Assembly: GCA_036001065.1 (NCBI GenBank) | Contig: DASYUQ010000114.1 | Coordinates: 1-32,075, forward strand | Origin: Candidatus Methylomirabilota bacterium | GTDB taxonomy: Bacteria; Methylomirabilota; Methylomirabilia; Rokubacteriales; CSP1-6 | Direction of reading: 5' to 3' | Length of the DNA: 32,075 bases | Part shown: positions 3,292 to 22,650 of the stretch, in pieces | How the letters are laid out: each line of letters starts with the position of its first letter | Position numbering within the stretch: position 1 is the stretch's first letter | The notes under the pieces: model-generated | Database searches by the model: none | What the model was told of the DNA's origin: nothing | The model's input: only the letters and a program-made list of their open reading frames with translations | Translations under genes and position numbers: made by a program

Positions 3292-3552
3292 ATGGCGGTA
3301 CTCGAAGAGAAGGTCATCGCGAGCTGGAAATACAAGAAGGGCGCGCTCGATCCCAAGACGGCGTCGCTCTGCTACCTGGCCGCCAATCTGGCGGTGGGCA
3401 ACACCCACTGAGCGAAGCGCGACCTGGCAGGCGCCAGGGCAGCGGGAGCGACGGAGGACGAGGTGCGGGAGGCCATCAGCTTCGCCATTCGCGCCAACGC
3501 GGCGAAGACGCACGCGGACATCCTCAAGGTGTGGACCGATGGCGGACATTAG
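3292..3552 (+). CDS. Candidate selenoprotein, AhpD-like/CMD family (in-frame UGA at codon 40)
   Basis: Read with the TGA at 3409-3411 as selenocysteine, this is an 86-residue AhpD/carboxymuconolactone decarboxylase-like protein. Around the UGA it reads LAVGNTH-U-AKRDLAGARAAGATEDEV, then EAISFAIRANAAKTHADIL. In AhpD the redox centre is Cys-x-His-Cys (CSHC in M. tuberculosis AhpD). Here the aligned residues are N37-T-H39-U40, so Sec replaces the second, peroxidatic-type Cys, the His is kept and the first Cys is Asn. The frame stays open and family-like for 46 codons after the TGA and ends in TAG. A strong ribosome site precedes it and a SECIS-like hairpin follows the UGA. It overlaps the next gene by 14 nt. 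Predicted role: thiol/peroxide redox chemistry. Alternative: a nonsense-mutated pseudogene. No selA/B/C/D is in the window. Confidence 0.72.
3412..3438 (+). promoter_or_regulatory. SECIS-like hairpin directly after the in-frame UGA
   Basis: Perfect 6-bp stem CCTGGC (3423-3428) / GCCAGG (3433-3438) closing the 4-nt loop AGGC. The loop begins 17 nt after the UGA and has a G at its second position. Bacterial SECIS elements are described as a short stem with a small apical loop about 16-37 nt after UGA and a G among the first two loop bases, so the geometry fits. GC-rich coding DNA can form such stems by chance, so this is supportive rather than decisive. Confidence 0.6.
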
Positions 3553-15094: not shown

Positions 15095-15123
15095 ATTATT
15101 CTGTTGCCGGCTCACACTGTCAA
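15095..15123 (-). promoter_or_regulatory. Sigma70-type promoter of the GGDEF/HD-GYP operon, near-leaderless
   Basis: Reading the minus strand: TTGACA (15123-15118), a 17-nt spacer, then AATAAT (15100-15095). The -35 is a perfect consensus match and the -10 matches at five of six positions. The predicted transcription start is 1-3 nt before the ATG at 15085. The TusA-like ATG at 15123 on the other strand lies within the -35 box. Confidence 0.65.
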
Positions 15124-15380
15124 TGTCAGAATTTCACCGGACGATGATCGTCACGCCCGACAAGAAAATCGACTGCATCGGCCTCTTTTGCCCGATGCCG
15201 GTGCTGAAGGTCCGTGAAGCGCTGAAGCCGATGGCGGCCGGGCAGTCTCTGGAGATGCTGTCCGACGATCCTGCCTCCGAGGCGGACATGAAGAGCTGGA
15301 CGGCCCGGACGGGCCACGAGCTGCTGGCGATCGAGAGGGATGGCGCGGTCTTTCGCTTCCTCGTTCGAAAGACCAAGTAG
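15123..15380 (+). CDS. TusA/SirA-like sulfur carrier
   Basis: An 85-residue protein of the TusA family, which carries persulfide sulfur (or selenium in some lineages) on a conserved Cys. The signature IGLFCPMPVLKVREAL contains CPMP with Cys23, and the rest follows the fold: LEMLSDDPASEADMKSW and ELLAIERDGAVFRFLVRK. An alternative ATG at 15144 gives a 78-residue protein starting MIVTPDKKIDCIG, closer to typical TusA length. The gene overlaps the cysteine-desulfurase homologue downstream by 41 nt, so the two probably act together in sulfur transfer. Confidence 0.87.
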   Translation: MSEFHRTMIVTPDKKIDCIGLFCPMPVLKVREALKPMAAGQSLEMLSDDPASEADMKSWTARTGHELLAIERDGAVFRFLVRKTK

Positions 15381-16539
15381 CGGCGCCGCGGCGGGCACCC
15401 GGGTCTACCTGGACTATGCCGGGTTCTCGCCCGTGGACCCGCGCGTGGTCGCCGTGATGCGCCCGTTCCTGGAGGGCGGCGTGGGCAATCCCTCCGCGCT
15501 GCACTCGCTGGGGCTCGAGGCCCGCGCCTCGCTCGACGGCGCCCGCGCCAAGCTCGCGCGGCTCTTCGGGGGCACGCCGGTGGGCGTGATCTTCACCGCC
15601 AGCGCCACCGAGGCCAACAACCTGGCGATCAAGGGCGTGGCCCAGCGCGCGTCAGGGCGCCACGTCGTCACCTCGGCCATCGAACACGTCTCGGTGCTCA
15701 ATCCCTGCCGTGACCTCGAGAAGCTGGGCTACAGCGTGACCTACGTGGGGGTGGCCGCCGATGGACGGGTGGACCCCGGCACCGTGGAGCGCGCGCTGCG
15801 CCGCGACACGGCCGTGGTCTCGATCATGGCCGCCAACGGCGAGATCGGCACCTTCCAGCCGGTCGCCGAGATCGGGCGGCTCACTCGCGCGCGGTCCATC
15901 CCGTTTCACGTCGACGCCGTAAACGCCGCGGGCCGGATGGCTCTCTCGGTGGACGAATGCGCGATCGACCTGCTGACCCTCTCCTCGAACGACCTCTACG
16001 GGCCGCCCGGTGCCGGCGCGCTCTGGGTGCGTCCGGAGGTGAAGCTGGCGCCGGTCATCCTGGGCGGTGGCCAGGAGCGCGGGTACCGATCGGGGACCGA
16101 GAACCTGCCCGCCATCGTGGGCATGGGGGTCGCCGCCGAGCTGGCGCGGGTCGAACGCGCCACCGAGTCCGCGCGGCTCGCCCAGCTCCGCGATCGGCTC
16201 CTCGCCGCGTTGCTCGAGCGCATCCCGGGCGCGCGGGCCACCGGCGCGGTCGGCGACCGCCGTCTGCCGCATCACGCCAGCGTCGTCGTGTCGGGGGTGA
16301 AGGCCGACAGCGTCCTGCTCGAGCTCGACCTGCGGGGTGTGGCGGCCTCCTCGGGCTCCGCCTGCAACGCCCTAACCGGCGAGCCGTCGCACGTGCTGCG
16401 CGCCATCGGGTGCGACCTGCAGGCCGCGGAGGGCTCGCTTTGCTTCACGCTGGGACGGTGGACCACCGCCCCCGAGATCGACGTCACGCTCGAGGTGCTG
16501 CCGGCCATCGTCGAGCGTCTCCGTCGCCTGGCCCCCTAG
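15340..16539 (+). CDS. Cysteine desulfurase homologue (IscS/NifS-like) lacking the PLP-binding lysine
   Basis: A fold-type I aminotransferase-like protein of 399 residues aligned over its length with IscS/NifS: YLDYAGFSPVDPRV, TASATEANNLAIKG, SAIEHVSVLNPCRDLEKLGY (PLP-stacking His), HVDAVNAAGRM and GGGQERGYRSGTENLPAIVG. The mobile-loop Cys is present (SSGSACNALTGEPSHVLRA). At the PLP Schiff-base site, normally S-x-HK-x-YGPKG, it reads LSSNDLYGPPG, so Lys is replaced by Asp. A similar Asp-for-Lys IscS is known in Archaeoglobus fulgidus, reported to lack desulfurase activity and suggested to act in Fe-S cluster assembly. The ATG at 15340 lies inside the TusA-like gene; family homology begins near residue 22, so the exact start is uncertain. 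Confidence 0.85.
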   Translation: MARSFASSFERPSSGAAAGTRVYLDYAGFSPVDPRVVAVMRPFLEGGVGNPSALHSLGLEARASLDGARAKLARLFGGTPVGVIFTASATEANNLAIKGVAQRASGRHVVTSAIEHVSVLNPCRDLEKLGYSVTYVGVAADGRVDPGTVERALRRDTAVVSIMAANGEIGTFQPVAEIGRLTRARSIPFHVDAVNAAGRMALSVDECAIDLLTLSSNDLYGPPGAGALWVRPEVKLAPVILGGGQERGYRSGTENLPAIVGMGVAAELARVERATESARLAQLRDRLLAALLERIPGARATGAVGDRRLPHHASVVVSGVKADSVLLELDLRGVAASSGSACNALTGEPSHVLRAIGCDLQAAEGSLCFTLGRWTTAPEIDVTLEVLPAIVERLRRLAP

Positions 16540-16727: not shown

Positions 16728-17417
16728 GTGCGCCTGTTCCTGTTCGACGTCGATGGCACCCTGCTCAACGCGCGCGGCGCCGGCCGCCTGGCGTTCGGGC
16801 GCGCGCTCGAAGCCGTATACGGGACGGCCGCGCCCGTCGACCGTTACGACTGGCGCGGCAGGACCGATCCGCAGATCGCCTTCGACCTCATGCGGGCGGC
16901 GGGGCTGACCGACGGCGAGATTGCCGCGCGGCTGGACACGTTCTTCGAGGCGTACGCGGGCGAGCTGGAGAAGGCGTTGGGCGACGGCGGTCGCGTCGAG
17001 GTGATGCCCGGCGCCGAGGAGGTCGTGAGGCGGCTCGGCGCCCGCGAGGACGCGCTGGTCGGGCTGCTCACCGGCAACATCGAGCGCGGCGCCCGCGCCA
17101 AGCTCCGGCCGACCGGCCTGCTGCCCTGGTTTCGGGTGGGCGCCTACGGGTCCGACGACGCCGACCGCCGGCGGCTTCCGGCCGTGGCCTGCGCGCGGGC
17201 GCGGGCGCTGACCGGTCGCGAGTTCCCCTTCGACCGCGTGACGATCATCGGCGACACGCCGCTGGACGTGGACTGCGCCCGCGCCTGCGGCGCCCGCGCC
17301 GTCGTGGTCGCCACCGGCCACCATCCCGCCGCCGAGCTGGCCGCCTGCACGCCCGACCTGCTGTTCACGGACCTCGGCGACGTCGACCGCGTGCTGGGCG
17401 CGCTGACGCACGCATGA
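16728..17417 (+). CDS. HAD-superfamily phosphatase (phosphoglycolate phosphatase-like)
   Basis: A 229-residue HAD hydrolase. Motif I FLFDVDGTLL holds the nucleophile Asp7 and acid/base Asp9, motif II is LLTGN (about 117), a Lys/Arg-rich segment follows (RGARAKLRP), and motif III is GDTPLDVDCAR (about 175-185). A helical cap (about 15-95) marks subfamily I, as in phosphoglycolate phosphatase Gph. The GTG start is the first codon before motif I. Its end overlaps the next gene as ATGA, so the two are translationally coupled. Substrate uncertain within small phosphorylated metabolites. Confidence 0.87.
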   Translation: MRLFLFDVDGTLLNARGAGRLAFGRALEAVYGTAAPVDRYDWRGRTDPQIAFDLMRAAGLTDGEIAARLDTFFEAYAGELEKALGDGGRVEVMPGAEEVVRRLGAREDALVGLLTGNIERGARAKLRPTGLLPWFRVGAYGSDDADRRRLPAVACARARALTGREFPFDRVTIIGDTPLDVDCARACGARAVVVATGHHPAAELAACTPDLLFTDLGDVDRVLGALTHA

Positions 17418-17860
17418 CGCTCATTGCGCTGTGGCTGCACGTGCTGGGCGCCGTGGTCTGGCTGGGGGGGCTCATGTACCAGGCCCACGTGCTCCGGCCC
17501 GCCGAGCCGGGGCAGGTGCAAGCCTTCGCGGAGGCGGCGCGACGCGGGCGCCCCGCCGCCTGGGCGGCGCTCGCGCTGGTGGTGTTGACCGGCTTCTACA
17601 ACGTCACCCGGCTCGGACCGCTCGAGCAGGTGATGCAGAGCCGGGCGGCGCTGGTGCTGGCCGGCAAGTTCGTGCTGGTGCTGGTCGTGATCACGCTGAC
17701 CGCGCAGCGCGACTTCGCCCAGGTCCCCCGGCTCCGCCGCGCGCTCGGCGGCGCCGAGGACCCCGCGCCGGCGCTGCGGGCGATCGCCTGGCTCGACCGC
17801 CTGGCGCTGCTCCTCGGCGCCATCATCGTCTACCTGGGCCTCGCCATCTCCCGCAGCTGA
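17414..17860 (+). CDS. CopD-like four-helix membrane protein
   Basis: A 148-residue integral membrane protein with four hydrophobic helices (about 3-22, 45-65, 78-97, 125-145). It starts with WLHVLGAVVWLGGLMYQ, in which His and Trp-Gly-Gly resemble the first helix of CopD/YebZ-type copper-resistance proteins, and contains GRPAAWAALALVVLTGFYN. It probably sits in the cytoplasmic membrane and may bind copper or haem. The ATG overlaps the HAD stop. A 7-bp hairpin CCCGCAG/CTGCGGG (17850-17867) spans its stop codon but has no T-tract. Confidence 0.72.
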   Translation: MTLIALWLHVLGAVVWLGGLMYQAHVLRPAEPGQVQAFAEAARRGRPAAWAALALVVLTGFYNVTRLGPLEQVMQSRAALVLAGKFVLVLVVITLTAQRDFAQVPRLRRALGGAEDPAPALRAIAWLDRLALLLGAIIVYLGLAISRS

Positions 17861-22362: not shown

Positions 22363-22650
22363 TTACTTCTTCCCAAGCACCGTGTCCTTCAGGCTCTTCG
22401 ACAGGCGGAACTTGCACACGCGCTTGGCCGGGATCTTGAGGGGCTCGCCGGTCTGGGGGTTGCGTCCCATCCGCGCCTTGCGGTTCGCCAGGACCAGCTT
22501 GCCGAAGCCCGGCAGCACGAACCCGTTCTTCGCCTCCTTGGTCGCGAGCATGACCATCTCGTCGAAGAGCTCCGTGATCTGCTTCTTCGAGAGGTTGGCC
22601 TTCTGCGCGAGGTGGGAGAAGGTCGCGGACTTCGTCATCATCTTCGCCAC
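22363..22650 (-). CDS. HU-family DNA-binding protein
   Basis: A 95-residue histone-like protein. SATFSHLAQKANLSKKQITE is the helical dimer region, and FVLPGFGKLVLANRKARMGRNPQTGEPLKIPAK contains the G-F-G-K turn and the DNA-binding beta arm with the R-x-x-R-x-G-R-N-P-x-T-G-E core. It bends and compacts DNA. The GTG start has a good ribosome site (AGGAGG, 22662-22657). It lies between cofH and the GNAT-like gene, splitting the F420 locus, with 69 bp upstream that may hold its own promoter. Confidence 0.93.
   Translation of the reverse strand: MAKMMTKSATFSHLAQKANLSKKQITELFDEMVMLATKEAKNGFVLPGFGKLVLANRKARMGRNPQTGEPLKIPAKRVCKFRLSKSLKDTVLGKK

Follow-up and report, generated by a model that had tools for sequence, protein, structure and literature searches.

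We find that the window (the whole 32,075-nt stretch of DNA analysed here) encodes a TusA-type sulfur carrier and, overlapping it, an IscS-like protein in which the PLP lysine is replaced by Asp. The best reading of this pair is that it forms the rokubacterial branch of an old IscS class without PLP chemistry, in which only the mobile cysteine loop has been retained. This reading is supported by the loss of residues for PLP and substrate while the cysteine is kept, by purifying selection on both genes, and by the linkage of the iscS-like gene to tusA, which outside Rokubacteria extends to genes for DsrE and IscU.

Results

The features of the locus are collected in Table 1. The overlap of the two genes is 41 nt, and the lysine site reads TLSSNDLYGPPG, with SSND where IscS has S-x-H-K, just as the original prediction had described it: a TusA gene overlapping an IscS-like gene with Asp at the PLP lysine. 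The TusA domain, the cysteine of the CPxP motif (LFCPMP; cysteine codon 15189-15191), Asp45 and Asp51 are all present in the window's TusA, which scores 64.8 bits against the NCBIfam TusA equivalog, under the cut-off of 78. For the IscS-like protein the top NCBIfam model is NifS, with 407 bits and a cut-off of 531 bits. Upstream of tusA, and divergent from it, lie a GGDEF gene and the gene for an HD-GYP response regulator, with an F420-biosynthesis cluster further out. The gene neighbourhood of tusA-iscS is kept in relatives, and the two conserved downstream genes (HAD phosphatase and CopD-like) are at most possible associates of the TusA-IscS pair. Within the F420 cluster, an HU/IHF-like gene (22363-22650, minus strand) is located between cofD and cofH, and is found in the same place in 14 of 20 relatives' loci.

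Table 1. Features of the tusA-iscS locus, with positions in the window.
Feature	Position	Strand	Basis
tusA, sulfur carrier	15123-15380	+	85 aa, Pfam TusA 83.3 bits
iscS-like gene, PLP lysine replaced by Asp	15340-16539	+	399 aa, Pfam Aminotran_5 217 bits
Asn195 in place of PLP-contact Gln183	15922-15924	+	alignment
SSND motif, residues 215-218	15982-15993	+	sequence; alignment of 191 homologues
GSAC of the catalytic loop (SSGSACNA), Cys342 corresponding to Cys328 of E. coli IscS	16354-16365	+	Cys342 codon 16363-16365
Cys368 in place of substrate-binding Arg354	16441-16443	+	alignment; Cys in 24/25 sequences of the order
HAD-family phosphatase, conserved downstream neighbour	16728-17417	+	Pfam; seen in 18/20 relatives' loci
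CopD-like small membrane protein, conserved downstream neighbour	17414-17860	+	Pfam CopD 42 bits; 16/20 relatives' loci

Residues Gln183, His205, K206, Cys328 and Arg354 are numbered as in E. coli IscS. Asp218 of the window's protein corresponds to K206, the His preceding that lysine (His205) has become Asn, and the second lysine, that of GPKG, is Pro. The Cys loop had been described as intact, which is correct (SSGSACNA, with Cys342 present), and so had the rest of the fold; the latter description stands as far as the Aminotran_5 match and the loop Cys are concerned, but not for the Gln183 site, now Asn, nor for the Arg354 site, now Cys. We take Arg354 to be the residue that holds the substrate carboxylate in desulfurases. 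The PLP pocket still has its Asp180, His104, Thr76 and Ser203.

We compared 131 lysine-less (ND) with 44 lysine-bearing (K) homologues at positions that were in no search pattern. The Gln183 site is Gln in 43 of the 44 K proteins, whereas the ND class has Ala (91), Gly (31), Asn (4), His (2) or Pro (2), and the Arg354 site is Arg in 43 of 44 K proteins against mostly Cys (35), Val (35), Leu (18), Gln (17) and Glu (10) in the ND class. The loop Cys328, on the other hand, is Cys in all 129 ND homologues covering the site. As K206, H205, Q183 and R354 are lost together, cofactor anchoring and substrate binding are both gone, while the persulfide cysteine is invariant. PLP is probably absent from the IscS-like protein, although it may still bind non-covalently, since Asp180, His104 and Thr76 are retained. 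The Cys found at the Arg354 site in the order provides a second conserved thiol, which should sit in the pocket.

A protein search that did not use the motif was made in 26 relatives of the same order (Candidatus Rokuibacteriota) and gave a clear orthologue in 24 of them. All 24 have Asp at the lysine site and TusA directly upstream; the original prediction had singled out the conservation of the SSND motif and of its tusA neighbour for checking. A normal HK in close relatives, which it had named as a refuting observation, is found in none of these orthologues. The reading frame is open in every one, and in comparison with five relatives tusA has a dN/dS of 0.11-0.18 and iscS one of 0.13-0.27. 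In the phylum as a whole, a pattern search found the SSND-type motif in at least 45 of 95 genomes, a lower bound because orthologues with other flanking residues (e.g. SNDLCGPP) are missed; the same search gave no match in other orders of the class. Neither IscU nor DsrE genes are present at the rokubacterial tusA-iscS locus. In one iscS(ND) reading frame from Rokubacteria, 494 aa long (L040, G009 C295:15283-16713), SSND occurs twice, 225 bases apart, which is either a tandem duplication or an assembly error.

The window's own genome was searched family by family for other sulfur genes. Two lysine-bearing desulfurases are present, namely a desulfurase-like gene with SSHK (contig C180) and a SufS with SGHK (contig C4), which answers the suggestion in the original prediction to look for a second, Lys-containing desulfurase. 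A further desulfurase-like gene, on contig C202, reads TAHLM and has also lost the lysine. Each of the three adjoins a NifU_N gene, and these account for the three NifU_N genes found elsewhere in the genome, none being beside the window's iscS. Three TusA-domain proteins are encoded, and CPxP occurs in the window's TusA only; the two without it (contigs C22 and C136; L073, L072) adjoin DsrE-family genes. No DsrC/TusE was found in this genome, and on this ground an E. coli-like TusA-TusBCD-TusE relay was rejected, as was a reverse-Dsr route to DsrC.

The gene on C202 (L003, C202:4610-5776) is of a second lysine-less IscS type that has TAHL or TAHM for S-x-H-K (also L243 and L246-L261). In this type His104 is mostly Gln, while Gln183, Arg354 and the loop Cys are retained and IscU is directly downstream. 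It is conserved in Rokubacteria, where the same locus also has a lysine-bearing iscS-iscU at a distance of about 5-6 kb, and since the TAHL proteins nest among lysine-bearing IscS in the tree, the lysine has been lost separately here.

The lysine-less class extends far beyond Rokubacteria. Scanning one genome of each species for the motif at the DNA level yielded at least 119 loci, chosen on the motif, in Bathyarchaeota, Methanobacteriota, Thermoplasmatota, Actinomycetota, Thermodesulfobacteriota, Cloacimonadota and many more. The gene order TusA, DsrE-family protein, IscS(ND), IscU is seen repeatedly and in many phyla, and IscU adjoins most lysine-less IscS outside Rokubacteria. Because these loci had been chosen on the motif, the TusA association was tested again in motif-blind samples obtained with protein queries. 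A. fulgidus IscS was used as query against 295 genomes of the phylum of one archaeal member, and 70 loci were read; among those away from contig edges, TusA is adjacent to 35 of 38 lysine-less but 0 of 29 lysine-bearing IscS (Fisher p = 6e-16, a value inflated by shared descent, the two classes being separate clades). Clade membership accounts for part of the TusA association, but the contrast is also seen between paralogues within the same genomes. In this archaeal sample DsrE was seen with no IscS other than lysine-less ones. Natural fusions of IscS(ND) with TusA, DsrE or IscU do not occur among the loci and homologues examined. In a tree of 89 sequences, made by a quick method with no root inferred and no A. 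fulgidus row, a branch with 99% SH-aLRT has every ND protein on the same side, and the ND proteins of Rokubacteria form one clade (100%).

Two variants were observed among the archaea. In Thermoplasmata members of the class SSPC replaces GSAC in the cysteine loop (L097, L105, L137, L145, L169), and other archaeal members have Asn-Gln in place of Asn-Asp (SGNQLGGP) together with Asp at the Gln183 site, still in the order TusA-DsrE-IscS-IscU (L319, L336).

The best match of the IscS-like protein among solved structures is A. fulgidus IscS 4eb5 (E 2.4e-108), for which the PDB also holds 4eb7 and 4hvk, and 4r5f with Asn-Lys for Asn-Asp. Judged by sequence, the two are in the same deep class and clade: they have SSND in common, with Asp for Lys and Asn before it, the Cys loop is retained, and the same four positions are replaced. 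The replacing residues differ, A. fulgidus having Leu at the Arg354 site and Ala at the Gln183 site, whereas the rokubacterial proteins have Cys, and Asn or Gly. In the genome with a 100% match to the query, which we take to be that of A. fulgidus, the crystallised iscS is in a DsrE-IscS-IscU locus with a TusA gene about 5.5 kb off, and a second iscS, 87% identical to it, is in a TusA-DsrE-IscS-IscU locus. IscU and DsrE are thus part of both loci, and the rokubacterial locus differs in having neither. The likeness to A. fulgidus IscS drawn in the original prediction was right, and is strengthened by the shared additional losses and by TusA and DsrE next to the lysine-less iscS-iscU of that archaeon.

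Discussion

We consider it probable, going by residues and gene linkage, that the IscS-like protein works without PLP, as a persulfide relay or docking platform that connects TusA with an IscU acting in trans, and that the sulfur is mobilised elsewhere. As IscS(ND) should not form its own persulfide, sulfur should go from TusA (or DsrE) to the loop Cys and from there to IscU where present. TusA would bring a persulfide formed elsewhere, with the lysine-bearing desulfurases, sulfide or sulfane sulfur as its origin, would dock on the IscS-like dimer in the manner of E. coli TusA on IscS, and would exchange sulfur with Cys342, which would then pass it on, or act as a cluster ligand, for the IscU scaffold. 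In Rokubacteria an IscU encoded elsewhere and acting in trans would be the first choice of acceptor. What we infer here is that persulfide is transferred, in which direction, and that IscU receives it. That the pair takes its sulfur from another source, as the original prediction suggested, is the best inference that the sequences allow.

The E. coli IscS-TusA complex (PDB 3lvj) involves the same two protein families, and several of its contact residues are retained in the window's pair, but the E. coli IscS is catalytically active with PLP and charges TusA itself, whereas the window's IscS is not expected to make a persulfide of its own. In the E. coli complex Cys19 of TusA is about 4 A from Cys328 of IscS, and the contacts comprise Trp45, Glu49, Asp52, Arg55 and Arg237 of IscS and Arg27 and Arg31 of TusA (PMC2854127). 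By E. coli numbering, Asp52, Arg55 and Arg237 of IscS and Arg27, Asp45 and Asp51 of TusA are present in the window's pair, while Trp45 is changed to Leu, Glu49 to Ala and TusA Arg31 to Lys. Docking of TusA on the IscS-like protein would accordingly be plausible.

Alternatively, the IscS-like protein could serve IscU only by lending it a cysteine ligand or as its assembly partner, and carry no sulfur, with TusA serving another task such as tRNA thiolation or FdhD. A. fulgidus IscS contributes a cysteine as ligand of the [2Fe-2S] cluster bound to IscU (PMC7585200), and the position of IscU beside most lysine-less IscS outside Rokubacteria would fit such a role. We nevertheless find it unlikely, as the conserved partner in Rokubacteria is TusA and not IscU, and as TusA adjacency is specific to the lysine-less class. 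Dead enzymes frequently turn into regulators, and no feature is more constant than the link with TusA, which would suit a regulatory role as docking platform, decoy or TusA chaperone in which the protein passes on no sulfur. The loop cysteine would not be needed for docking alone, but is invariant, and we regard this explanation as distinctly improbable.

We give still less weight to a protein that remains an active cysteine desulfurase, be it by means of a different lysine, of free PLP or of a mixed dimer in which a lysine-bearing IscS is the partner. The retained pocket residues Asp180, His104, Thr76 and Ser203 and the lysine-bearing paralogues of the genome could be taken to favor it, but A. 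fulgidus IscS has been reported to be without desulfurase activity (PMC7585200). Moreover, Gln183 and Arg354 are lost as well, and Pro takes the place of the second lysine of GPKG. TusA-like YedF proteins are found in selenium metabolism, and the original prediction had speculated on a link between the pair and an upstream selenoprotein candidate. This is probably the short AhpD-like frame at 3292-3552 (plus strand, 86 aa), which is open only with read-through of one in-frame UGA (GNTHU). The selenium link has to be given up as highly improbable, since the genome has no SelB above the model cut-off, TusA scores 30.7 bits against a cut-off of 110 for the NCBIfam selenium_YedF model, and none of the loci examined has a selenium gene. 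Finally, a local sequencing error or decaying gene, for which nothing but the loss of catalytic residues speaks, is ruled out by the open frames in all orthologues, by Asp in 24 of 24 relatives and by a dN well under dS.

The reading that we prefer, a PLP-independent relay or platform between TusA and IscU, can be set beside other known systems. Lysine-less IscS is already known from two archaea, the second being Methanosarcina acetivorans, where IscS1 (MA0808) was reported to be without the catalytic lysine and to share a gene cluster with iscU1 and four functionally uncharacterised genes (PMC7585200). The loss of lysine is shared with the window's protein, but no iscU is found beside the window's gene. 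A further IscS-IscU homologue pair is the MIS system (MisS-MisU), as described in PMC12442378. The DsrE of a sulfur oxidiser acquires sulfur from sulfide (PMC3397948), and E. coli without IscS is reported to use H2S for clusters under anaerobic conditions (PMC13015791). We tentatively put forward, as an idea that falls just short of being probable, a widespread Fe-S or sulfur relay whose starting point is not cysteine: TusA, in many cases together with DsrE, would charge a PLP-less IscS that passes sulfur to IscU, and clusters would in this way receive sulfide or sulfane sulfur via a dead desulfurase. Rokubacteria would then have a trimmed form, in which the second Cys in the pocket may resolve the persulfide.

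In the open literature that we searched, outside which most subscription papers lie, we found no link of TusA or DsrE to lysine-less IscS; relative to that literature the TusA(-DsrE) module, the breadth of the class and the rokubacterial form, which lacks IscU at the locus and carries a pocket Cys, are new.

The finding touches on the question of how anaerobes, and archaea above all, supply their Fe-S clusters with sulfur when they have no cysteine desulfurase to draw on; in Methanococcus maripaludis, for example, sulfide is used rather than cysteine (PMC10500019). The case of A. fulgidus IscS has been puzzling because an enzyme minus its catalytic lysine is retained for no clear reason. The conserved module of TusA, DsrE, dead IscS and IscU supplies partners for it, and consists of four small proteins that can be put to the test. 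It also follows that genes which match general cysteine-desulfurase models only may be without desulfurase activity.
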